DNA from: a virus
Virus record (IMG/VR): IMGVR_UViG_3300037882_004081
Location: 38,729-102,728 of that record
Length of the DNA stretch: 64,000 nt
Direction: 5' to 3' (one strand)
Under the pieces are notes generated by a model. It was not told where the DNA came from. It saw only the letters and a list, made by a program, of their open reading frames with translations, and searched no databases. Below are positions 2,895-34,200 of this stretch, in pieces. The position numbers and the translations under genes are program-made. Position 1 is the first letter of the stretch. Each line of letters begins with the position of its first letter.

Positions 2895-3517
2895 TGCGTT
2901 TTGTAAGGTTCAAAATACACCGTAATCCCACTGACTTTGTAGCCGTAAACCGTGTTTTCGGAAGAGTCCACGTTGCCATCCCCCATGACCTTGTATTTCA
3001 GCATGGCTGGTCGGTCTTTGACGGACTCCCATAGTGGGACGTTCAGTGCGTGGAAGTCACCGACCAAAAAGAACTCGTTACCCTCTATCCTCTCGGTGCG
3101 GATGTTCCGCATTTCCCCGACCGTGTGAGTCGGTGAAAGGACACCAGCTGGACTACCTTCCAAGTTCACCAGACACGGGCTCGGGAAGGACTCAAACGAG
3201 TTCTCGTGGTAGATAAGGCCACTGTTCGGAGACGGATGGCCAAGCTGGATCAACTCCACTGTACGAAGTGATAGTTGCTCCGATTCCGGGCGCGGATCGG
3301 TCCATATCCACCCAAAGCTCTCGGACCGCCGCAGTTTCAGGTCCCCGATTGGGGTTGTGCAGACCACCCCAGTTGGGTCAAAGCCACACCGCTCAATGAG
3401 GTCTCCGAGCATCTTCGGAACCGACTCCACGTTGATTTCCTGAACCTGCCGATCGCGTTCATCGAACGCACAAATGTTACCGTTTGGGAACAGGATGAGT
3501 GACTTGAGTTGTTTCAT
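2891..3517 (-). CDS. Hypothetical protein, 208 aa
   Basis: The ATG start (MKQLKSLILFPNGNI) lies inside the end of the upstream small gene, an overlap of 41 bases, and the stop is coupled to the downstream gene by GTGA. The sequence is beta-rich with an early hydrophobic strand, no obvious signal peptide, and a C-terminus (YGYKVSGITVYFEPYKTQ) typical of a globular beta protein. No family recognised. Confidence 0.75.
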   Translation of the reverse strand: MKQLKSLILFPNGNICAFDERDRQVQEINVESVPKMLGDLIERCGFDPTGVVCTTPIGDLKLRRSESFGWIWTDPRPESEQLSLRTVELIQLGHPSPNSGLIYHENSFESFPSPCLVNLEGSPAGVLSPTHTVGEMRNIRTERIEGNEFFLVGDFHALNVPLWESVKDRPAMLKYKVMGDGNVDSSENTVYGYKVSGITVYFEPYKTQ

Positions 3518-3695
3518 TTCGTTTGAGTGGCTTTCCCATGTACTGCCTCCAAGCTCTGGTGCGTTGACAAGTGTGGCAGGTCACGTCTCGACCGTCGTAG
3601 GCGGCGTGCTCCGACCCGACCAGACCGCAACCTGTCACGTTGCGGTTCGAAGGTCGGAAGTGGACGGGACGCCCGATCCGTGGCACGTAGGCCAT
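3477..3695 (-). CDS. Small zinc-binding-type protein, 72 aa
   Basis: Residues 38-43 contain CHTC, with a further Cys upstream in VTGCGLVG and a conserved-looking H between them, as in short phage zinc-knuckle proteins. The ATG at the upstream end abuts the stop of the 226-residue protein. The downstream gene starts inside this one. Basic residues near both termini would suit nucleic-acid binding, but this is inference. Confidence 0.6.
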   Translation of the reverse strand: MAYVPRIGRPVHFRPSNRNVTGCGLVGSEHAAYDGRDVTCHTCQRTRAWRQYMGKPLKRNETTQVTHPVPKR

Positions 3696-4375
3696 TACAG
3701 CTTGCCCTCTTTGACTTGGGTGCCGGTTGGCACCAGTTCTTCCAGCGCGTCGAATTGCTCCTTGCTGAGCGCCTTGGACTCCAGCATGCTCAGCTTTTTG
3801 CTGTTGTAGCCTTCGGTCGGGAACACTTGCATCTTGAGCGCAATCACGTCGTCGGGGTTGAGACCAAGCTTGGTCAGCATTTCCTTCATGCCCTCGTAAA
3901 CGGCGGTCTGCTTGTCTTCGGGGATTTTGGCGCTGGTGATCGAGAGCGAGAAGCGCTCTTCGAAAAGAGCTTCCGCGTTGTCCTCGCCGATCCGGGCGAC
4001 GAGTTCGGTGGCAACCGCATCGGAATCGTCGGTGCCAGCGGTCTTGACGGCGAAACGGGTGGTGTCGGGGAACGACACCATCACGACGCCACCTTCAGGA
4101 CCGAGGATTTTGACCGAGGAAACCGCCGCACCGTTGTGGGTCGGGTTTTCGAGGTAGTTGGCGCGGGCAAACCCGGAGATGACCGACTTGGCACCCTTGA
4201 GGGAGGTCTCCATTTCCTTGAACTTCTTGTTGTCAACGGCGAACGAATCGACGTATTCAGCGAGTTCAACGAGTTCCGGATTCGCCTTGGTGTCCAGCGA
4301 AATGACGCGGTGGGCTTCCTTGAGAGCCTTGGTGACGGTCGGCTTGGCGGCGGCGAGTTTGGAGCGAAGGGCCAT
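3695..4375 (-). CDS. Hypothetical protein, 226 aa
   Basis: First gene after a near-perfect sigma70 promoter. Its leader of about 45 bases is almost purely A and C near the start (CCAACCCAACTCACACC then ATG) with no Shine-Dalgarno. The protein is acidic, highly charged and mostly helical, with a beta-rich centre (SSVKILGPEGGVVMVSF). Probably abundant and cytosolic. No family recognised. Confidence 0.8.
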   Translation of the reverse strand: MALRSKLAAAKPTVTKALKEAHRVISLDTKANPELVELAEYVDSFAVDNKKFKEMETSLKGAKSVISGFARANYLENPTHNGAAVSSVKILGPEGGVVMVSFPDTTRFAVKTAGTDDSDAVATELVARIGEDNAEALFEERFSLSITSAKIPEDKQTAVYEGMKEMLTKLGLNPDDVIALKMQVFPTEGYNSKKLSMLESKALSKEQFDALEELVPTGTQVKEGKL

Positions 4376-4425
4376 GGTGTGAGTTGGGTTGGGTTGGTTG
4401 GTGAAAGCGTAATTGCTACATCGGA

Positions 4426-4454
4426 ATTATACCACACCTTTGTACGTTTGTCAA
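4426..4454 (-). promoter_or_regulatory. Strong sigma70-type promoter
   Basis: Minus strand: TTGACA, 17-base spacer, TATAAT, a consensus match at both boxes plus extended -10 (TGG before TATAAT). It serves the 226-residue gene starting at 4375 and probably the downstream small genes. Confidence 0.92.
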
Positions 4455-4459
4455 GTCCC

Positions 4460-4858
4460 CTACTTAGAAAGCCCTTCCAGCATCTCCTTGATGGATGGTG
4501 GTACCCCCGCTTCCCGCTCCGCCTTCTTCCGACACTTGCGCTGTTTTGCCGTCCACTTGTTCAGGTGCGTGATGACGCGGGCCAGCTGCACCGCGTCCAC
4601 GTCCACTTTTTCAGCCTCTGCGATCGGGTCCAGGCGTTCCCGGATGCACCGGACCGCCGTCACCCCCACACGGAGATGACGGGCGAAGTCGTCGCACGAA
4701 GGAATCGTCACGGTCGTCCCACCGATGTGGGCGATGAGACGCAGGACCTCATCAGGTCCCAGCATCCACGTGAGCAACTCCAGTCCCGGATGGGACTCGT
4801 AAAACAGAGCCAGCGAAAGCTCGTTGCCAAGCCCTTCGAGTGGATCTGGAAGTTTCAC
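4460..4858 (-). CDS. Putative DNA-binding protein, Mor-like motif, 132 aa
   Basis: Residues about 30-65 read as hydrophobic helix, a GG pair (IAHIGGTTVTIPS) and then a helix, the pattern seen in Mor-type phage regulators. The C-terminal half is strongly basic (KWTAKQRKCRKKAER). It follows the GroES-like gene directly, with its ATG one base from that stop. A regulatory or DNA-binding role is inferred; the motif match is weak. Confidence 0.6.
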   Translation of the reverse strand: MKLPDPLEGLGNELSLALFYESHPGLELLTWMLGPDEVLRLIAHIGGTTVTIPSCDDFARHLRVGVTAVRCIRERLDPIAEAEKVDVDAVQLARVITHLNKWTAKQRKCRKKAEREAGVPPSIKEMLEGLSK

Positions 4859-5419
4859 CTACTCGCCAATGATAGGAAGCGTACCGTCCGCGACACCCTT
4901 GGCGAGGCGTGCCAGTTCGGATTCCCGTGGAGCACCCGTCACCGGGTCGCGCACCACCTCGCCGAGCTTGTCTTGGTCCTCGTAGGTCTGCTTGGTCCAC
5001 CACTCGCGGTACTTGCGGAAATCGGCGAGTTGCTCTGAGGTCCAATCTGGGTTTTCGGGGTGGTTGAGATTCGGCAGCACCATGATAACGCTGTGCGGGT
5101 TCTCTTCGACCTTCCAGCCCATTTGGCCATTGAGACCATTGGGGACGCGCCACATCGTGGTGGTGTGGAGCAGCACGATGTCGCCGACTTTGACGCGTTT
5201 GACATCGGGTCCGATTTGGACGACTTCACAGATTTCGTACTTCTTTTCGAGAGCGTCCTTTTTGCCTTGCGGCAGCACGATTCCGGATTCCGTTTGACCC
5301 GCGCAATACTGCATGGTGTCAACCGCGAAAATGGCGGCTCCGATGGGGCTCGCGAGCGACATCGGGACATAGAGGATACAATTCGACAGGGTGGTTGGTG
5401 CGGCAGATGATGACGACAT
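4859..5419 (-). CDS. GroES-like co-chaperonin, 186 aa
   Basis: Residues 45-50 (SGIVLP) and 76-85 (VKVGDIVLLH) match the two most conserved blocks of the GroES fold, with the intervening segment resembling the GroES beta-barrel. GroES is about 97 residues; here an extra C-terminal region of some 90 residues, rich in Glu and Trp, is added. By analogy with T4 gp31 such proteins cap the host GroEL to fold the capsid protein. No GroEL gene is seen in the window, so host GroEL would be the partner. Some GroES conserved positions differ, so the assignment rests on two motifs. Confidence 0.7.
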   Translation of the reverse strand: MSSSSAAPTTLSNCILYVPMSLASPIGAAIFAVDTMQYCAGQTESGIVLPQGKKDALEKKYEICEVVQIGPDVKRVKVGDIVLLHTTTMWRVPNGLNGQMGWKVEENPHSVIMVLPNLNHPENPDWTSEQLADFRKYREWWTKQTYEDQDKLGEVVRDPVTGAPRESELARLAKGVADGTLPIIGE

Positions 5420-5448: not shown

Positions 5449-5673
5449 ATGACTTCTTCTAGCGATCTGCCCGGTACCCTCCACAGTGTTGACATTGAAG
5501 ACAACAAGATCGTGGGAGGCGTCGTGGAGGTGGAGGATCACGGTTGCCGGATCTGCCTAACGAGTGAGCGGATCAGCGAGGACGTGCGGGAGATCGGGAC
5601 GCACGGGTTGCTCCAGTGGAACAACGGGTGGTACTTCAACGCTAAGCCCTCCCCCAGGCAATTTTCGTGTTGA
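5449..5673 (+). CDS. Small hypothetical protein, 74 aa
   Basis: A lone plus-strand gene between minus-strand blocks. The frame is open from a TTG at 5395 and an ATG at 5407; the internal ATG (MTSSSDLPGTL) is chosen because it avoids overlap with the divergent GroES-like gene. The protein is acidic with beta-strand periodicity. The 3' end overlaps the convergent structural gene by 32 bases. It could be spurious. Confidence 0.4.
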   Translation: MTSSSDLPGTLHSVDIEDNKIVGGVVEVEDHGCRICLTSERISEDVREIGTHGLLQWNNGWYFNAKPSPRQFSC

Positions 5674-8430: not shown

Positions 8431-11159
8431 CAGTAGATACCAATGCTCATGGAGGCGGCGGTCGGGAACGTTCCCGCCGAATATGAAGCGAGTTGCTGGC
8501 CAGTCGGGAATGTGAATGGAGTGGCCAGCGGCACAGTGCCCTGGATTGCGCTGATCAATGACGAAGAAACAGTCTGACTGAAGACATCGGTGATGTCGTA
8601 GAGCTGCACCAAAATGCCATCGCCGCTACCCTCTCCGGTGTGCCATACCGAAGCTCCCTCTGTCCACGTGATGCCGGTAACGCCCGTCATATCAACTGGC
8701 ACCGTCTGCACCAACACTCCGTCTTCACGAACACGCGTGTTCCTCATGCCGGTACCACCGCCAGTGTAGGCCAACTGTCCAGCCGCCAAATAGTGGATCA
8801 CATCGCTAGTGAGCGCGAATGCCCCGAAAATCGCCCCGGCTACCGTGTCACTGTATGGAAGAGTGCCAGTACCATCAGCCACACCGCCATATTCCGGTGT
8901 TCCCGTCGAATACCAGACCATGCGAATGACACCGGGAGAGGCGTCTGCTCGCACTTCGATTTTGAATGGGTTGGTACGCGACATCCTGCCGAACTTGACC
9001 CCATTCAGCGCTGACATCGTCACATTCTCCGTGGAAACCAGCGTATAAGACCCCAGCACGTAGTCGTAAATGCTGAAGGTGAGCATCGAGGTGACGGTAA
9101 TCTGCATGGAGGAACTGTGGTTGGTTGATCCAGCCCACTGTTCCCCGGTAGCATATGCAGTACCAGCGGACCTCCGATAGATCACGACAAACCCGTCGGT
9201 CTCAGTCGTCCCGTCCACGATCACCGCTGTCCCACTGTCCTCATTGACGTATCCAGATGAACCAAAGTGAAGGATGTAGTACGGAATGACAGGATCGCTT
9301 TCGCTGTAAGAGCCAGTGAGTTCCCACTCCACCTCCAGATCCCGCCCGGTGTGCTCGGGCGGTTGGGTGTAGACATCCGAACCAAATAGGAGACTCGAAA
9401 TTCCTCCGGGTGGCTCTCTCAGAATTGGTGCCTCGACGAGAGACTGCGAAATCGCGTTCCTAGATCTTCCCGATCTGTCTTCCAATAAGAGGATCGAGTC
9501 CCCGTCATCGTATACCGCACCAAGGCAACTCGCATCTAGCCAAGCAACCAAAGCGTCAGTGGTGGTCTCGGGCACCTGGATGTCGAGAAGCTCGCACATT
9601 TCGGTGTTGCATCCTTCGAGCGTGCAATAGTCGATCGAGCTACCGGGCACATTTTGCGACCCCGAATCACGACAATACCCGCGCACCAAGTCGATAGCCC
9701 CATCGACGTTGCCCTCTTCGCCGTTGTTGAGCACGATGTCAACCGGGTATCCGTGTTCGGGGATTTGGGACGCTGGGATGGTGACGACCCCTATCTGCAT
9801 CACGTAGTTGCCAGACCGATTCTGTGTGATAGGGGCAGACAGCGCCACCTCCCACGTCGAGGTGTTGCGGGGTCTTGGCCAGGACAGAAGCAGAGGACTG
9901 TTGGCAATCAGGAACGCGGGGGACGCAGCAACCTTGCTATCCTGGTTCCTCGACTGTGATGCGTCGAGCAACTGAGGTACAGGTATGCAGATGTGCGAAA
10001 GCGGACTGTACAGCCCAGATACGACCGCATTCCAAGTTTCAACCGGACAGATCCTCGTGCCCCACTTTTCCGGGGTAAGTGCAAACGGTCGACAGTTAAC
10101 GATGATGGAGCTAGCGGGCGACGAACTTGTGACTAACACCACCTCCCTAATTTCAAGAGCATCCCACGAGTCTGAGATCGAAGGCGACAGAAGCGTCATC
10201 ACGATCACATTGTCGCCGCTCTTGATTTGGTCAGTCACGTCCAGCACGCTCCCGCTGAACCACGCCAAATAGTGTCCGTTGAGAATGAACTGAACTGACT
10301 GTGTGCCTTCCCAGTTGGCACCACCGGAACCAGTCAGGAAATACCGGTAGTCGCTGTTCTTGGTCGGCACCCCGCCTTGTTCATTCGGGAAGTCCTCCAG
10401 ATTGAAGGTGACCGGAGCGGGTGCAGTATCGACGCCAGCGTCGAAGAGGTCGAGCCCACCTTCCGCAGACCGATATGACCACTGGTTCTCGGGAATGCTA
10501 TCGGGGAACTCACTGTCTGATCTCCGCACCACCATCTGCTGATTTGGATAATATGCCGGGTCGGAGTCATCGGGTTCCAGTGCCACCACGCCGAACATCG
10601 AGTTCCATGATTCGAGCCGGTAACCAACAATCGCGGATTCATCGGGACCCCAGTAAGATGGGAGTGCGTGGGTCGCGTAGATGAACCCTTCTGGCCACAG
10701 GTGGGAAGCGGTGAAGGAGTGGGATGGGACCGTCAGGACCGTCGTCTGCTGCCAGACAAGTTCCAGAAGGGCATCTCGGAGCCCGTCTAGCCGTTCGGGG
10801 ATCGAGCTACCGGGGGCAGCGAACGGAAGGCTTCCTGGGTCAACAGGAAGCCAAGAAGACCGGTCTAGCCATAATGGCGCAATCGCAATAATGGCGGACT
10901 GAACGTCATCGAGCCACGCAGACCATATCGAGACGTCGGAAGCCCCCTCTGCTAGCACCTGCTCGTAGTTTACCTCCGGCATCACTGTTCCACCCAATTC
11001 GGTGGTAGGCACCGGAACACCAAGTGCGGCGTTGCGTTCCAGCAACCCGCACCACACCGCCACTGCGGCTCGCCAGTCAACCCGACCACCCGGACCCCAC
11101 CCCGCAGCACGAATGCGGGGTCTGGATGGCTGTTGATGAATGGGCGAGTTCGCGTCCAC
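8430..11159 (-). CDS. Large virion/fibre-like protein, 909 aa
   Basis: The GTG start lies seven bases after the stop of the recombinase gene; no in-frame ATG is close. The sequence is multi-domain and beta-rich. Around residue 250-350 is a segment resembling a galactose-binding sandwich, and from about residue 530 (ALVAWLDAS...LEDRSGRSRNA) a lectin/LamG-like domain of the kind found in phage adhesins. It is followed by two related large genes. Probably a tail fibre or whisker; function is inferred. Confidence 0.75.
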   Translation of the reverse strand: MDANSPIHQQPSRPRIRAAGWGPGGRVDWRAAVAVWCGLLERNAALGVPVPTTELGGTVMPEVNYEQVLAEGASDVSIWSAWLDDVQSAIIAIAPLWLDRSSWLPVDPGSLPFAAPGSSIPERLDGLRDALLELVWQQTTVLTVPSHSFTASHLWPEGFIYATHALPSYWGPDESAIVGYRLESWNSMFGVVALEPDDSDPAYYPNQQMVVRRSDSEFPDSIPENQWSYRSAEGGLDLFDAGVDTAPAPVTFNLEDFPNEQGGVPTKNSDYRYFLTGSGGANWEGTQSVQFILNGHYLAWFSGSVLDVTDQIKSGDNVIVMTLLSPSISDSWDALEIREVVLVTSSSPASSIIVNCRPFALTPEKWGTRICPVETWNAVVSGLYSPLSHICIPVPQLLDASQSRNQDSKVAASPAFLIANSPLLLSWPRPRNTSTWEVALSAPITQNRSGNYVMQIGVVTIPASQIPEHGYPVDIVLNNGEEGNVDGAIDLVRGYCRDSGSQNVPGSSIDYCTLEGCNTEMCELLDIQVPETTTDALVAWLDASCLGAVYDDGDSILLLEDRSGRSRNAISQSLVEAPILREPPGGISSLLFGSDVYTQPPEHTGRDLEVEWELTGSYSESDPVIPYYILHFGSSGYVNEDSGTAVIVDGTTETDGFVVIYRRSAGTAYATGEQWAGSTNHSSSMQITVTSMLTFSIYDYVLGSYTLVSTENVTMSALNGVKFGRMSRTNPFKIEVRADASPGVIRMVWYSTGTPEYGGVADGTGTLPYSDTVAGAIFGAFALTSDVIHYLAAGQLAYTGGGTGMRNTRVREDGVLVQTVPVDMTGVTGITWTEGASVWHTGEGSGDGILVQLYDITDVFSQTVSSSLISAIQGTVPLATPFTFPTGQQLASYSAGTFPTAASMSIGIY

Positions 11160-27013: not shown

Positions 27014-28004
27014 CGTGGTCGTCGGCTTCGTCGGCAACAGAAAGCAGCGCCCGTGCACCAGCGGTAAGGTTGGCAGTCCGGTATTGCGCCTGGGCGGATA
27101 CTTGGAAAAACCTTGGTGGTACACTGGCCAACGGTTCCAGCCCCCGGATTGCACGTACCACTGACACGAACCTCTGATCGCGGACCGCTAAAGTCTCTCC
27201 GCGCTCCATGTTGGTGACCCAACTGTGGTTTTCGAGTCCACCCACCGTCGCCACCTCGTACAGCCGAATGCACTGCTTTTGGTGAATATCGTGGTAAGCG
27301 ACTCCCAATCCGAGGCGCTCCACCCACGACATTCCCGCATCGCGGATCGCCTTGGCGCTCTCCCCCGCGAACACACGCAAGCGGTCGCGGTCTTTACGAA
27401 GTTGATGGAGTTCGTGGTTGAGCGCTTCCGTGAATGGCCAGAGTTTCCCGTCGTATCGAATCGGGAGTTCGGATTTCGGAAGGCGCTCCACCCACCGTTG
27501 TCCAAGTTCACATGCAACTGCCCACCATAGTTCTGGGGCAGGAATGAACACGGGAGCGGTCTTGTCGCTCAGGCAGGAGTTCAAATACTCGGTTTCACCC
27601 TGCAGCACCGACTGATAAACCACGGCACTGTAATCAAGCCCTTGGCGTCTCCGCATCGCCGCGTCCGTGAGTTCATGACGGTGATCCGCCATCCACTGGA
27701 TGTGGCGTTCACTGAGCAAGGACGTATCGACGAAAAACGGGCTCGTCACCCCTTCAATGGTGCATCGTACGATCCACGCTTTGATCGCATCGCGCAGGAA
27801 CTGCTCCAGCCTATCATCCGGCACTCCCGCACGCAAGCGAGTGAGCATGAGGTTTCCGGGACGAAATCCACCAGAGTCGGGTTCTTTGCCCGCCACTCTA
27901 ACCCACTCGTCCTTCATGATCGCGGCACACCAATCCGCCATCTGGATCTCCTGATCCGTCCGATGAGCCTCCCCGGTTGGTACCTGCGCTTTTGGTGTTG
28001 CCAT
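27003..28004 (-). CDS. Hypothetical protein, 333 aa
   Basis: Mostly helical, with many Trp and Arg and an acidic tail (DEADDHDED). No enzyme motif is recognised. Its first 107 bases lie inside the end of the DUF559 gene, a long overlap by the standards of this genome; an internal ATG (MADWCAAIMKDEW) would cut this to 44 bases. Confidence 0.7.
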   Translation of the reverse strand: MATPKAQVPTGEAHRTDQEIQMADWCAAIMKDEWVRVAGKEPDSGGFRPGNLMLTRLRAGVPDDRLEQFLRDAIKAWIVRCTIEGVTSPFFVDTSLLSERHIQWMADHRHELTDAAMRRRQGLDYSAVVYQSVLQGETEYLNSCLSDKTAPVFIPAPELWWAVACELGQRWVERLPKSELPIRYDGKLWPFTEALNHELHQLRKDRDRLRVFAGESAKAIRDAGMSWVERLGLGVAYHDIHQKQCIRLYEVATVGGLENHSWVTNMERGETLAVRDQRFVSVVRAIRGLEPLASVPPRFFQVSAQAQYRTANLTAGARALLSVADEADDHDED

Positions 28005-29040
28005 GATTCAGTAAACAAGAAAGGTTGAAAGTTGTTTCGTCAACCAGTCCTTTAACCTCGTTTCTCCCCATCGATAAAGCTAGGATCAACACGTTGGCGA
28101 TCTTAGATGCGGAGGTGGTTTTGGTGGCCAACAAGAATAAGGCGGAGGTGGCATTTGCGGTACCGGGGACAATGTCAGCTTGCTTGAACCACCCCACCAT
28201 GATACCGCGTGCCGCCGTGATTGCCATGCTGAGCAACTGCTCTTCGGTGGTCAGGGACTTTTGGATCGGGTTATCGGGGTGACTGATGACTTGCAAAAGG
28301 GCTTCCGTCTTGTCACGGGGCAACCGGGCAGTCCTAGTGGGCATCACGATGTCCGGATCAGCCGTCAAAACGCTCCCGTACCCACTGGGAAGCAAGGAAA
28401 GGCTTCTTGGAAAGACGGCGGCAAAAGCGGCGAGTTTCGGTGAACTCTGCAGGTTGTTTTGAGACGCCTTGAACCCATTCCAGTCGTTCATGCGACGCTT
28501 TGGCGCGATCCCGATGAACGATTGTGGTCCGGGAGGCTTGATTTCCGAGAGCGCCGATAGTAGCATGTCAACGATCTGGTAACCCATGTCGGTGGCACCG
28601 ACGAGCAAACCCCGTGGAATGCGGAATACCGAAAACCCAATGCTCGACAGCCAGAAGTCCCGCTTCTGGTCCCATTCCAGCTGTGTGGGGTCTTCGTAGT
28701 GGTGCGAACCGTCGATTTCCACGACTACCGCGTACTTTGGCACCACGAAATCCGCGATGAACCCACCGATTGGCACCTGACGCATCGCCCGTACGCCGAA
28801 CGTCTTGAACCAGCTTTCGACCCGGTCTTCGAACTTGGCGGTGAATTCGCGGTGTTCCTTGGCGGTCTTTTTGACCCATTCCGGCTCAGCGAGGCTTGAG
28901 CAGCTGGCGAAACGCCGCTCCCATGTCGTGATGTCTTCGGGCATCTTGGAAGCCGCGAGGAACGAAAGCGAACTACCTTCGAAGGCCCTGATGTAGTTAC
29001 GGACCTTGATAGGGAATAGGGAGATGGGACTTACGCTCAT
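27898..29040 (-). CDS. DUF559/Vsr-type nuclease domain protein, 380 aa
   Basis: Residues about 85-150 carry the PD-(D/E)XK-like core of DUF559/very-short-patch endonucleases: an ADFVVP strand with Asp, then VVVEIDGSHH and a later Arg-Asp pair before SSIGFSVFRIP. The remaining 230 residues are unrecognised. Such domains cut DNA or DNA mismatches. The C-terminal 35 residues (Gly/Ser/Asp-rich) are encoded by the region that also starts the next gene. The ATG giving MSVSPIS is chosen. Confidence 0.78.
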   Translation of the reverse strand: MSVSPISLFPIKVRNYIRAFEGSSLSFLAASKMPEDITTWERRFASCSSLAEPEWVKKTAKEHREFTAKFEDRVESWFKTFGVRAMRQVPIGGFIADFVVPKYAVVVEIDGSHHYEDPTQLEWDQKRDFWLSSIGFSVFRIPRGLLVGATDMGYQIVDMLLSALSEIKPPGPQSFIGIAPKRRMNDWNGFKASQNNLQSSPKLAAFAAVFPRSLSLLPSGYGSVLTADPDIVMPTRTARLPRDKTEALLQVISHPDNPIQKSLTTEEQLLSMAITAARGIMVGWFKQADIVPGTANATSALFLLATKTTSASKIANVLILALSMGRNEVKGLVDETTFNLSCLLNHGNTKSAGTNRGGSSDGSGDPDGGLVCRDHEGRVG

Positions 29041-29057
29041 ACCGGTCAAGAAAGATC

Positions 29058-29204
29058 TTACTTGACAGGATTTTTCCGTTCCATCTCATCCGCACACTCC
29101 TTTACATCCCTCAGGATCAGGCTAGTGGGTAAAGGGGTTATGGAAAACGCGTTGCAGAACCCACGCCAGAACCACCTCCACCGCCATTTGAATGGCACCT
29201 TCAC
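29058..29204 (-). CDS. Very small hydrophobic/basic protein, 48 aa
   Basis: A GTG start overlaps the TGA of the upstream signal-peptide protein (GTGA). The N-terminus is Trp/Arg-rich (KWRWRWFWRGF), followed by a short hydrophobic part and a charged tail ending NPVK. Too short for a routine scan but supported by overlap and position. A membrane-active peptide is possible; this is inference. Confidence 0.5.
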   Translation of the reverse strand: MKVPFKWRWRWFWRGFCNAFSITPLPTSLILRDVKECADEMERKNPVK

Positions 29205-29506
29205 TTCAGCTTGATGACGTGAAACTCGTTCGTTTTGGCGCTCTCCACGACCATGAAGGACTCACCAGACTTGGTGTCCGTGAACGTGTGGATGTCATAG
29301 CCGTTGGCCGGGTTCCGGTACTCGGGTTCCCAGATGTATCGCAGCTCAACATTTCCGTGACGAATCTCCACCTTCTTCGGTTCGGGAGCCTGAGCCATCG
29401 ACACACAAGTCGCTGATCCAAACATCCCCACGACCACCATCACGAGAAGCGAAAACAGGAAGAGTGGCGTGGAGAACGGGCGGAGGTGTCTGTTAAGTGC
29501 TTTCAT
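29201..29506 (-). CDS. Small exported protein with signal peptide, 101 aa
   Basis: Basic N-region (MKALNRHLRP), a hydrophobic core of about 20 residues, then SATCVSMAQA, which offers a signal-peptidase I site after AQA; the Cys in this stretch makes a lipoprotein conceivable but the lipobox is poor. The mature part (about 60 residues) is beta-rich and charged. It is coupled on both sides by overlaps. It probably acts in the periplasm; a spanin-like role is possible but unproven. Confidence 0.7.
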   Translation of the reverse strand: MKALNRHLRPFSTPLFLFSLLVMVVVGMFGSATCVSMAQAPEPKKVEIRHGNVELRYIWEPEYRNPANGYDIHTFTDTKSGESFMVVESAKTNEFHVIKLK

Positions 29507-29826
29507 ACCAAAATAGAACGATCGTAGCGGGCTCGGTTCCGCGTCACTGTGACCTTTTCGGTGCCCGTTTCACCGGCAATCTCTTCATCCGACTTGGACC
29601 AATCAACGCCCCCGAAGATACGATCTCGTTCAGCGACTGGCATCCGTCCGCGACACCCAGGAGTCCACCGGGAAGTCCGGCCATTCCGGATCATCGCGCT
29701 ATTCAGGTGCTTCTCGCTGCAATCCGGGCATAGCTTCCTGCGCCTGTCCGGGTTGTCCCGGCAGCAGCTTTTGCACTTACCCTGTGCAACCAACTGACGC
29801 TGCCTGAGTGCCTGTCGTGATACCAT
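29503..29826 (-). CDS. Zinc-finger/HTH-like regulatory protein, 107 aa
   Basis: Residues 18-36 contain CKSCC and CPDC (two CXXC pairs) in a zinc-ribbon arrangement, and the C-terminal part (DWSKSDEEIAGETG, then KVTVTRNRARY) looks like a helix-turn-helix. It is coupled to the exported-protein gene (ATGA). A DNA-binding regulator of the surrounding small genes is plausible; this is inference. Confidence 0.7.
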   Translation of the reverse strand: MVSRQALRQRQLVAQGKCKSCCRDNPDRRRKLCPDCSEKHLNSAMIRNGRTSRWTPGCRGRMPVAERDRIFGGVDWSKSDEEIAGETGTEKVTVTRNRARYDRSILV

Positions 29827-29832
29827 CTTGTG

Positions 29833-29952
29833 TCAAGGAAGTGGTGCCGATTTTGGCACGATGATGAGAGCAAAGGAGGCAAGCGCCAACACAAACAGAA
29901 TTACCGCAACTTCCACGCGACTGAACACATCGTTTGGTCGAGGCGTATTCAT
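29833..29952 (-). CDS. Tiny single-span membrane protein, 39 aa
   Basis: Polar N-terminus with a hydrophobic span of about 19 residues (VAVILFVLALASFALIIV) and a short basic/Pro tail. The ATG overlaps the stop of the upstream gene (ATGA). One of four tiny membrane proteins in a row. Confidence 0.65.
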   Translation of the reverse strand: MNTPRPNDVFSRVEVAVILFVLALASFALIIVPKSAPLP

Positions 29953-30125
29953 CGTTTGGCCCATGCGATCAGTGCGCTGGCAATGCCAACCGCGAGGATG
30001 ATGATAGCGCAGCCAATATGCTGACCAAGCTCGGTATCACCGAACGCAGTCTTATATTCGACGGGCGATTCCGGTGGTTCCGGTTCTTTCCGGTCGTCAG
30101 GTGGTTTGTCTTGTAGCACGAACAT
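29949..30125 (-). CDS. Tiny single-span membrane protein, 58 aa
   Basis: Acidic/Pro-rich N-terminal half (DKPPDDRKEPEPPESP) followed by a C-terminal hydrophobic span (IGCAIIILAVGIASALIAW) and AKR. The Pro-rich tail outside one membrane span suits a C-terminally anchored protein, with the N-terminus cytosolic or periplasmic. Stop overlaps the next gene (ATGA). Confidence 0.65.
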   Translation of the reverse strand: MFVLQDKPPDDRKEPEPPESPVEYKTAFGDTELGQHIGCAIIILAVGIASALIAWAKR

Positions 30126-30129
30126 GGCG

Positions 30130-30288
30130 TTATAGTTTCCGGTGTGTGATGATGGCTTGGTAAGTGAAAAACAGCAAACCCGCTATATTCCACAGGTCCC
30201 TCAGGAAGCTGGGTGACCCGATCAGTTTTGTTGCGCTATAGACGGCTGCGGTAATGCAGATCGACAGGTAAAAGATCCGGTGGTTCAT
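30130..30288 (-). CDS. Tiny two-span membrane protein, paralogue B, 52 aa
   Basis: Two short hydrophobic segments separated by a polar loop. It has the same length and pattern as its upstream neighbour, sharing the start MNH and the C-terminal FFTYQAI.T.RKL. Its ATG overlaps the neighbour's TGA. A tandem duplication is the simplest explanation. Confidence 0.7.
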   Translation of the reverse strand: MNHRIFYLSICITAAVYSATKLIGSPSFLRDLWNIAGLLFFTYQAIITHRKL

Positions 30289-30443
30289 AACTTCCGGTAA
30301 GTGGTAATAGCTTGGTAGGTGAAGACCGCGATGAAAAACAGGTTGACCAAGTCCACGCGGACGTTTTGACGCCGCGTCAACCAGATGGTGTTGTAAATGA
30401 TGACGGTCAGATAGACGGCTAGAAGAATGGCGTGGTGGTTCAT
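30285..30443 (-). CDS. Tiny two-span membrane protein, paralogue A, 52 aa
   Basis: MNHHAILLAVYLTVII opens the first span; the C-terminus FTYQAITTYRKL matches paralogue B. The ATG overlaps the stop of the upstream small acidic gene (ATGA). Confidence 0.7.
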   Translation of the reverse strand: MNHHAILLAVYLTVIIYNTIWLTRRQNVRVDLVNLFFIAVFTYQAITTYRKL

Positions 30444-30592
30444 GGTGTTTTGTGCCCTAGAGCGTGACCATCGACGTTTGCAGAAGTATCCTCGTCCGGT
30501 TCCGGGTTTTCAAGTTCACTTTCAATGTCATCGATCAGGCACTGCCCGTCACAATCCACCTCCAAGCATCTGACTTTTTGATCAGTTGACAA
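30440..30592 (-). CDS. Small acidic protein, 50 aa
   Basis: The TTG start is the only one in the open frame, which ends in an ATGA overlap with paralogue A. Strongly acidic (DDIESELENPEPDEDT) with three Cys in the first 18 residues. It could be a small regulator or metal binder; unknown. Confidence 0.45.
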   Translation of the reverse strand: MSTDQKVRCLEVDCDGQCLIDDIESELENPEPDEDTSANVDGHALGHKTP

Positions 30593-30630
30593 GCCGCCCT
30601 CAGCAGCGTTTCACGTCGTTCCTTGCCCAT
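30535..30630 (-). CDS. Putative 31-aa basic peptide
   Basis: ATG-started frame four bases past the upstream stop, ending at 30535, overlapping the small acidic gene in another frame by 58 bases. Only one of the two is likely to be real, or both may be translated. Basic and Ala/Leu-rich (MGKERRETLLRAAC). Confidence 0.3.
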   Translation of the reverse strand: MGKERRETLLRAACQLIKKSDAWRWIVTGSA

Positions 30631-30633
30631 AAG

Positions 30634-31017
30634 TCAATCTGGTAGTTCGTATTCAGTCAGGCTCCCGCAGTCCTGATGGGGCAAGACTGAGTCAGTCGTC
30701 TGGGGAAGCTCACATGGGGCGACTCGACCAAGGTTCCAGATGAGGAACTTGGCGGCTTTCCCTAGTGCCTCCTGCGCTTCATCCTCCGTGTTGCCCTGTC
30801 CTTCCAGGGCGAAATGGCCGTAGTTGCGATCGCCAAATTTAGTGAACTGCCATTTGGCGACAAATTGCCCGTCGGACCGCTGCCGAGTAGTGATGCCGTC
30901 CGCTGAGACTTTTTCCGACTCACCGGACTCGATGAACATCCGGCCAAGGATAGTTCCGGCAGTCGGAGGGCTGGGTCGGTCTGGATGGCTCTGGCTCACA
31001 GCTTCCATAGAACGCAT
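30634..31017 (-). CDS. Hypothetical protein, 127 aa
   Basis: The first plausible ATG (MRSMEAVSQSHP) is chosen; the frame extends further but into a hairpin region and the divergent gene. The middle (AKWQFTKFGDRNYGHFALEG) is a beta segment, followed by a helix (NTEDEAQEALGKAAKF). Unknown. It is the leftmost gene reading away from the DNA polymerase. Confidence 0.55.
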   Translation of the reverse strand: MRSMEAVSQSHPDRPSPPTAGTILGRMFIESGESEKVSADGITTRQRSDGQFVAKWQFTKFGDRNYGHFALEGQGNTEDEAQEALGKAAKFLIWNLGRVAPCELPQTTDSVLPHQDCGSLTEYELPD

Positions 31018-31270
31018 CGCAGTGTTAGTAGTCTTACTTGACAGGCTTCGACAGACCAGCAAATTGGGGAGGGAAAGGGAAGGGAAAAGGGTGTCGTTCA
31101 AACAATGCGAAGTCAAACTAGTTCGCTGCACTATCTGAACAATGCTTGAGTACGCGTACGTGAAGAACCCCATTAAGAACCCCTCCCCCGCACACTCGGG
31201 GGAGGAATGTTTAATGATGAAGCCGTGCTGGGTGTCACGATAAAACAGAGTGGTGCAGTTCTTTTGTGGC
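31018..31270. promoter_or_regulatory. Divergent intergenic region before DNA polymerase
   Basis: About 250 bases between divergent genes. It holds a 10-base palindrome (GTACGCGTAC) near 31150, a strong hairpin at 31182-31205, and a TTGACA at 31036 on the plus strand lacking a good -10. The leaders of both transcription units, and possibly a replication or regulatory site, lie here. No gene is supported. Confidence 0.4.
31182..31205. terminator. GC-rich hairpin between divergent genes
   Basis: A 9-bp stem (CCTCCCCCG and complement) with a 6-base loop. It is not followed by a convincing U-run on either strand, and it lies upstream of both neighbouring genes, so it is more likely an mRNA leader structure or cis element than a terminator. 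Confidence 0.4.
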
Positions 31271-34200
31271 ATGTCTCATGAACTTGTAGAGGACGAAGAG
31301 GAAGAGGACCTGATGGGGTTCCGAGAGGAACAGGAACTTGAAGTGGAAGCCGAAAAGGAGGCGGAAGCACTGGCTAAACAAATCTCCACGTTGATCGGCG
31401 GAGCTTCCTCCAGCCACCCGAAGTGCAAAAAGTGTGCACTGAACAGCAACTGCAAGTCTCCTTACCAAGTTCCTTACTGGTGGCTTGATGGCCCGAAGCC
31501 CGCGTGGACCTCCCACATTCCGGACGAAGTTGACCTCAAGGACCGCTCCTGGATCATTGTGGTTGGCGACCCACCGGATGTGAGGTCCGACATCACGAGC
31601 AACATGCTCCAAGCACCCCAGCTGCGCATGCTTGAAAACGTGATCCCAGATGGGGCTCGGGACGCAGAATTGCCACCGACAGTTGGGTCATGGGGAATGG
31701 CGTACTTACCGGCGACTCGTTGCCGCCCGCCCCTTGACATCAAGTTTGTAGAACGGGCTCAGGAGAGGGCTGCTCAGGAGGGGCAAGAGTACACGGCGGA
31801 AGAGTTGCTGATGCACCCTGAGGCCAAGGCGCAAAACCCCGACAAGACCATGATGAATCGGTGCTTTGGGACCTTCCTGAAGCCCATCATGGACATCCTG
31901 CCAAACGTGATCGGGGTGGTGGCGAAGGGAAGCAGTGCCGCTTATTTGGTGGTGAAGCACGCTCACGCCCCGTCCACAGTGGACCGTGCCTACTCGTATT
32001 CGCTGCAAGATGACTCCAAGACGGTTCCCGCTGGTGTCCTACAGGATACAACTTACGTGCTGACCGATACCGCGCTGAGGTGGCCAGAGTTCGTCAAGTC
32101 CACGCGCAAAATCACCGGTCGAATTTTTGTGGATGTTGCCAAACGGCTCACCTCCGAGCTTCCACCCGGATTTGAGTATGTGCTCGGTACAACCGCTAAA
32201 CTGGTCGAAGAATGGTTCCGGCCAGTCCTAGCGAACCCGACCCACCTGCTGTCGTGGGACGTGGAAACCTCCGGCGTCCAGCCATATGCACTCGGTTTTA
32301 AAGTTGGTGTGTTTGCATTCCACCATGAGGCCAACGATAAACCACTGATTGTCTGCACCACCGACTATGACTTCATGCCGCAGCTTCTCGATTCTTCCGG
32401 GATGTTTGGTGCGGCAACCAGAGCGCTGGCGGAGTGGCAAAAGACTGAGGAACCAAAGATCCTGCGGATGCTCAAGCTGATTCTGGAGGCTCCCACGGTG
32501 CTCAAGCTTGGTCACAACCTTCAGTTTGACGAGGTTTCGGTGAGGGCTCGCTTTGGCTGGGAGGTGAAGGGGTTTGCCTACGACACCATGATGCAGGAGT
32601 ATCTGATTGACCCGGACATCCGTGGTCTTCGGGGCTTGGACGACCTTTGCCGTAAGTACCTACCCGACATACCCCAATACTGGGAGAAGCTGCAGAAATA
32701 CCACGAAGCACGCGGCAAGAAGTCATCTTACCTGTCGATCCCGCCCGAAATCCTGTTGCCGTACGCGGCTTATGACGCCTATGTGACGTTCCTGCTTCAC
32801 GAGAAGACCCAGGAGGCACTCGCCAATCACCCGGCGTCTCGGAAGGGCGGGTGTTTCGTAAGACCGGGGGACGACGGCACATTGGCCGCGTGGACCTACA
32901 ACCCCAAGCAATACTGTAAGTACGTGCGGAAGGTCCACCACCGAGTCTGTTGTGAAGTCCAGGGGTATGGACAGTACGTCAACCTGGAACTCGCGGCCCG
33001 CGTTTACAAAGTCTATCACGCGGACTTGGTGAAGAAACAGGCCGATCTGGCGGATGACGAAGACGTGCGGGCATTCGAACTTGGAACGCTCCCAGCAATG
33101 TTGAAGCTCAACCACCCTCAGGTGAGGGCGTTCCGCAAAGACCCCGACGGGTGCCCACTCCGCATCAACTGGGCGTCCATTTTGCAGGTCCGCGCCTTGT
33201 TCATCGGGTTCCTGGGGCTTCCCGTCATTAAAAAGACCGAGAAGGGCGCACCGTGCTTGGATGAAGGTGTCATCAAGGAATACGCGCTCTCCAATCCGGT
33301 CGCCAAAAAGCTCTTGTTGTGGCGGTCTACCGCCAAGTTCATCACGAGCTTCCTCAACCCGCTCCTGACCAACGATCCTGCCAAGTCAGTGCTGCAGCGC
33401 GACAAAATGGTGCACAGCCAGTTCGCGGCTTCCAAGATTGCCACGGGTCGTCTCTCGTCCAGCCGACCCAACATGCAGGCGATCCCGCGAGACGGGGAGG
33501 TGAAGCGAATCTACACAAGCCGCCACGAGAAGGGGTGGATTCTGACGCGGGACTACTCGGGTATTGAGGTTCGCGTGCTTGCGATGGTTTCCCGAGACCC
33601 TATCCTGCGTGCCGTTTACTTGCCGGGTGGCACTGGGGACGCCCACTTCGCGACCCAACAGAAGTTCTTCGGTGAGCGGGCTGACAAGAAGAATAAGACC
33701 CAACGGTCGATCTGCAAGCAAGCCCTATTCGGACAGATTTACGGGCAAGGAGACAAGGGCTTGTTTGAGCTTCTCACACTCAATGGTGTCATGGACCCGG
33801 ACACCGGAGCTCCAATCACCTATCAGCAGTGTCAGGACTTCAACCGAATGCTCGCCGAACTCTACACGGGCGTCCAAGATTGGGTCAAAGCATCTCACAA
33901 CTACTCGATCCAAAACCACTATGTCACGTCGGCATTCGGGTTCGTGCGGAATTTGCCGGTACTCAAATCGTGGGAGCAGTACATCGCGGCCACCCAAACT
34001 CCGAATCGTGGTCGGACCTATCGCCAGAAGCGCCTCATGATGGAAACCAAGGAAGCCCTGCGGGTCTCCCAAAACGCTTCCATTCAAAGCACCGCGTCTG
34101 ACTTCACGGTGCTGGCAGCGGATAAGATCATTGATGAGTTCAAGTCATCCAGGATCAGCGCCCGTCTTTACAATATCGTGCACGACGACATCTGGAGCGA

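Follow-up and report, generated by a model that had tools for sequence, protein, structure and literature searches.

A probable operon of very small, overlapping genes, several for predicted membrane proteins, in a strongly diverged tailed phage

About eight very small genes, probably real, make up a minus-strand operon in a strongly diverged tailed phage; several of their products are predicted to be membrane proteins, and many of the genes meet at overlapping stop and start codons. We read the cluster as an accessory operon of the host-takeover type, which would supply small envelope proteins through stop-start coupled translation, and assign this reading a probability of about 0.5. The window analysed comprises 64,000 nucleotides (bases 38,729–102,728) from a virus record 102.7 kb in length; L016 and L017 denote further stretches of the same contig. 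Positions refer to the window unless one of these stretches is named.

Genomic setting of the cluster

Among the proteins encoded by the contig are a portal, a baseplate wedge and a baseplate hub, which are marks of a contractile-tailed phage. Its replication and repair genes specify a family-A DNA polymerase, a UvsX-like recombinase, helicases, an NAD-dependent ligase and an SbcC-like nuclease, and nucleotide enzymes are encoded as well. The cluster is located among these genes of DNA replication and nucleotide metabolism, divergent from polA, and its neighbours are polA, an endonuclease gene and a dNMP kinase gene. The endonuclease-like protein (27898–29049, minus strand) is encoded directly downstream of the cluster and contains an HNH-family region (phrog_559, E 9e-6); by our own reading it is DUF559-like.

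The divergent region between polA and p126, the first gene of the operon, holds a strong hairpin at 31171–31216, which consists of nine pairs, eight of them G-C, and has the outer arms CATTAA/TTAATG. A search against Rfam gave no match above threshold, and a sub-threshold match to RsaE at 31177–31272 is most likely due to chance.

The chain of small open reading frames

Read along the minus strand, the chain opens with p126 (30634–31014; 126 codons), for which a start codon is proposed and whose product would be acidic and soluble. Next come o31 (30535–30630; 31 codons, basic), starting 3 nt after p126, and ac50 (30440–30592), an ORF for an acidic peptide with a net charge of -11 that starts at a TTG or at a later GTG; the ac50 stop overlaps the start of the following gene as ATGA. 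That gene, tm52a (30285–30443), encodes 52 aa with two hydrophobic segments of the helical-hairpin type, and is ATGA-linked to tm52b (30130–30288); tm52a shows two hydrophobic peaks and tm52b one above the cut-off. The tm58 product (29949–30125) has an acidic/charged, proline-rich N-terminal half and one predicted C-terminal transmembrane segment of the tail-anchored type, and tm39 (29833–29952; 39 aa), which starts at an ATGA junction, a single predicted transmembrane segment. The remaining genes are zn107 (29503–29826), with a CxxC...CxxC zinc-binding motif and a predicted helix-turn-helix (HTH), exp101 (29201–29506), with an N-terminal signal or anchor helix followed by a beta-rich domain of ~60 residues predicted to lie outside the membrane, and o48 (29058–29204; 48 codons), basic and tryptophan-rich, with a GTG start at a GTGA junction. 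The structure model of exp101 has a pLDDT of 66 and is therefore usable in outline only.

A preliminary description of this DNA had reported small ORFs, mostly linked by ATGA/GTGA overlaps, and both the ORFs and the overlaps were found at the positions it gave, with four ATGA junctions (30,440–30,443; 30,285–30,288; 29,949–29,952; and 29,503–29,506) and one GTGA junction (29,201–29,204). The cluster thus shows the -4 or -1 nt overlaps between stop and start codons that mark a translationally coupled operon. The extent originally given needed amendment: the ORFs listed were borne out, but the head gene of 126 codons (30,634–31,014) had been omitted. Likewise, an ORF described as 43 aa long does exist, but its start, placed at 29,964, is most likely at 29,952 (MNTPRPND...), because the start of tm39 then shares an ATGA (29,949–29,952) with the stop codon of tm58 (58 aa). 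The four tiny membrane proteins of the same description are supported by hydrophobic segments, and its exported protein, exp101, is supported as exported or anchored by an N-terminal hydrophobic helix; these assignments are predicted from hydropathy and are not a topology measurement.

Minus-strand ORFs joined end-to-start tile 1795 of the 1814 nt between 29,201 and 31,014, compared with 287 nt on the opposite strand of the same region. Tiling in dinucleotide-preserving shuffles (n = 500) had a mean of 632 and a maximum of 1625, and none of the 500 matched the observed value. The ORF chain is not a chance product. The preliminary description expected standard pipelines to overlook most of the cluster ORFs. 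Prodigal has a default minimum of 90 nt, so most of them would probably be called by it.

Codon-usage support for the individual ORFs was ranked as a percentile against shadow ORFs. It was strong for exp101, tm58 and tm52a (99th percentile), good for p126 (95th), tm39 and ac50 (93rd), all within the 93rd–95th percentile, and intermediate for o31 (89th) and tm52b (82nd); zn107 (56th) and o48 (65th) received none. One could hence argue that several ORFs of the cluster are by-products without coding function, the real genes being limited to exp101, zn107, tm58, the twin tm52 genes and p126. The codon usage of o48 and zn107, no better than that of shadow ORFs, fits such a view, as does the 58-nt overlap between ac50 and o31; since these two are read in different frames, either one of them or the placing of their starts is doubtful. 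The gap-free chain with its overlapping stop/start junctions speaks against by-products, however, and so does, for zn107, the existence of a paralogue, and we consider this explanation somewhat unlikely. The weakest ORFs are o48, ac50 and o31 (48, 50 and 31 codons), which are weakly supported, ac50 being weak to moderate; an operon of about eight very small genes is probably real.

The twin 52-residue proteins

The proposal that tm52b is a tandem duplicate of tm52a was confirmed. The two proteins, now diverged, align over their full length without gaps at 20 of 52 identical residues (38%); their BLOSUM62 sum is 91, and none of 100,000 shuffles scored above 33. Nei-Gojobori estimates (NG86) were 0.56 for dN and 2.07 for dS; the resulting dN/dS of ~0.27 is a rough value because dS is near saturation. 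Simulated neutral mutation of one twin to the observed distance (73 nt differences) left a mean of 13.3 identities and at least 20 in 0.4% of cases (P 0.0036), and a stop codon arose in 86% of the mutants thus simulated. Since the 20 identities go beyond the neutral expectation and stops would have been expected, both copies seem to have been retained at the protein level.

The zinc protein

The zinc-ribbon regulator of the preliminary description is supported as a protein of probable zinc/HTH type. A paralogue of zn107 that is 41% identical is encoded at L017:1720–2085 (minus strand), in which the paired CxxC residues C18, C21, C33 and C36 are invariant, and the C-terminal pattern DW..SD......TG....T.T.NR.RY is common to both proteins. 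Because of this paralogue, zn107 was accepted as a gene despite its codon usage. The structure model of zn107, built from a two-row alignment, has a mean pLDDT of 78.5 and C-terminal helices at residues 64–71, 80–87 and 91–101. When it was compared with the PDB, the matches were mostly DNA-binding HTH/homeodomain proteins, none of them significant. The model and the conserved cysteines suggest that zn107 is likely a DNA-binding regulator.

Translation signals and promoters

The gene starts of this phage are almost without Shine-Dalgarno signals: Shine-Dalgarno-like 4-mers precede 3 of 102 starts, against a background of 9.6%, and 5-mers 1 of 80, against 3%. We collected 14 strong promoters that belong to a single class, TACTTGACA-17-TATAAT/TATAGT, and in most cases carry TGTGT ahead of the -10 box; the same pattern search on the reversed sequence gave 1 match. 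At nine of these promoters an ATG follows the -10 hexamer after 5–6 nt, and their mRNAs should therefore be leaderless. These lie at 2661(-), 22840(-) and 42879(+) of the window, at 9675(-), 11998(-) and 14561(-) of L016, and at 2417(-), 3633(-) and 7459(-) of L017, and in several cases the ATG opens a gene whose product can be recognised, such as the NAD ligase, a helicase and the phrog_2319 protein. The other five, at 4454(-), 21528(-) and 50568(-) of the window and at 5667(-) and 13476(+) of L017, have an apparent leader, with no usable gene start within 8 nt of the -10 box. Leaderless TA-led genes have been described in bacteria (PMC3160421). No promoter recognised as belonging to this class precedes the operon, and its early timing is consequently suggested by its neighbours only.

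Of 14 gene pairs overlapping as ATGA that were tested in archaea and E. coli, 13 proved strictly coupled (PMC6728339). Four-nucleotide stop/start overlaps link genes in the present cluster too; unlike those pairs, they join a whole series of very short phage genes that have no Shine-Dalgarno signals, for which we infer coupling from the overlaps. As the starts are without such signals, stop-start coupling would be the natural way to translate the internal genes. Having terminated on one gene, ribosomes would begin again at the ATGA or GTGA that overlaps it, which is the most likely route for the internal genes, and this restart would tie the output of the linked genes together. A much broader proposal is that, in a phage with no Shine-Dalgarno signals at its starts and with many apparently leaderless transcripts, ATGA-linked chains of tiny genes are a general expression strategy, in which ribosomes would start afresh only at the first gene of an operon and reach every later gene by re-initiation alone, which would set the stoichiometry of a multi-part membrane complex with the 52-residue twins as a heteromer; we regard it as speculative and rather improbable.

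Search for relatives

The phage appears, from sequence comparison, to be strongly diverged, with a near-absence of known relatives. The DNA around the cluster had no match in 50,697 phage records, and Pfam, PHROGs and PADLOC gave no significant match for any cluster protein. Phage protein searches with zn107, exp101, p126, tm52a, tm58 and o48 returned no relative, nor did scans of IMG/VR and GTDB with zn107 (alone and together with its paralogue), the alignment of the 52-aa twins, and exp101. Even for polA, the portal and w1413 the phage protein searches and the IMG/VR and GTDB scans found only relatives that are ~19–27% identical: the phage polymerase search had only relatives below ~27% identity among the matches listed, and the IMG/VR portal search only portals of ~22% identity. 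The zinc-protein alignment had no match in six of the portal-bearing contigs, a scan of IMG/VR with the promoter motif yielded 76 loci and no clear relative of this phage, and neither zn107 nor exp101 had a significant counterpart in structure searches. The absence of relatives reflects the limits of the collections and of pattern-based scanning and is not evidence against the genes; the searches may also omit records that closely resemble the genome from which the window comes.

Putative function of the operon

The operon would be co-transcribed along the minus strand, starting at ~31.0 kb and reaching 29.06 kb, with a possible extension into the DUF559-like endonuclease gene. Its products would include the twins as membrane proteins of hairpin type, one tail-anchored and one single-span protein, and a further protein that is either exported or anchored, together with a small zinc/HTH-type DNA-binding protein that probably regulates transcription. 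During infection, the most likely target of the membrane proteins is the host envelope, where they could affect, for instance, cell-wall synthesis, division or the entry of competing phage DNA. Large tailed phages carry clusters of small host-takeover or accessory genes, as in the early and non-essential regions of T4, and the present cluster is of this common kind, most likely serving manipulation of the host cell envelope. It resembles those of the T4 type in that tiny genes, several of them encoding membrane segments, are packed densely on one strand, in its position near replication genes and in having no database relatives; it differs in that there is no sequence relation and that its starts are without the Shine-Dalgarno signals that T4 has. 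Gp11 of the staphylococcal phage PhiNM1 is an early small membrane protein that blocks host division (PMC11237401); the likeness is one of protein type, i.e. a small phage membrane protein, and the host-envelope role of the cluster proteins is putative. Against the host-takeover reading, no homologue in Pfam, PHROGs or PADLOC ties any cluster member to a function.

Two of the roles first suggested for the cluster, superinfection exclusion and membrane remodelling, are possible, and an exclusion or immunity module is the main specific rival. T4 Imm and Sp block DNA entry of related phages, and the membrane proteins of the cluster could do the same: they are small, predicted to be membrane-located and encoded in an apparently early-type region, and twin copies would fit an arms-race diversification. 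However, the cluster proteins have no sequence relation to the known exclusion families covered by Pfam, PHROGs and PADLOC, and we hold this role to be unlikely. The lysis timing that had also been suggested found no support, since the contig contained nothing recognisable as an endolysin, a holin or a spanin, although part of the genome may be missing from it and lysis genes can diverge beyond recognition. An unrecognised lysis cassette, in which the tiny membrane proteins would be holin, antiholin or spanin components, would agree with the overlapping genes and with the several small proteins of one or two predicted spans, and the lysis genes, not being found elsewhere in the contig, must be unrecognised somewhere or missing from it. 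Yet no endolysin-like gene adjoins the cluster, which has a setting of replication genes (polA, endonuclease, dNMP kinase), no endolysin family was found among the cluster and neighbouring proteins, and the N-termini of the cluster proteins contain no lipobox pattern, as an outer-membrane spanin needs. The only lysozyme-like item recognised in the contig is the baseplate hub of tail-lysozyme type, away from the cluster. The cassette is not supported, and we hold it to be distinctly improbable.

The borders of the cluster raise the prospect of a mobile or toxin/antitoxin-like cassette that was acquired recently, with the endonuclease gene on one side of the insertion site and the polA divergent region on the other. 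Exactly at both borders lie 17-nt direct repeats that are identical at 16 of 17 positions, TCTTACTTGACAGGATT at 29056–29072 (3' border) and TCTTACTTGACAGGCTT at 31032–31048 (5' border, just upstream of p126), located 14–15 nt before the minus-strand start codons of the endonuclease gene and p126. Exact repeats of 14 nt are not rare, however, occurring in 23 of 123 of the window's 2.5-kb stretches, and part of the likeness is accounted for by the TACTTGACA motif, the -35 element of the phage promoters, which both repeats hold on the plus strand without a -10 box. There is no transposase, and the cluster proteins have no match to a defence or toxin family; we hold insertion of such a cassette to be very improbable.

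With its duplicated pair of membrane proteins, the cluster adds a well-supported set of orphan microproteins from a phage lineage with almost no database relatives. If coupling is true, it would be a compact natural test of chained translation without Shine-Dalgarno signals; failing that, the cluster is a phage accessory cluster of an ordinary kind.

Elsewhere in the contig, L017 contains a match to the RelE/ParE-like toxin family at 3495–3947 (minus strand), probably corresponding to a 105-aa ORF at 3630–3947, and the short ORF directly downstream of it, which has its own leaderless-type promoter, possibly encodes an antitoxin. Near the zn107 paralogue, at 4215–4967 (minus strand) of L017, a repetitive NUMOD3-type protein, assigned from a repeated SEETR motif, is likely a piece of a homing endonuclease.
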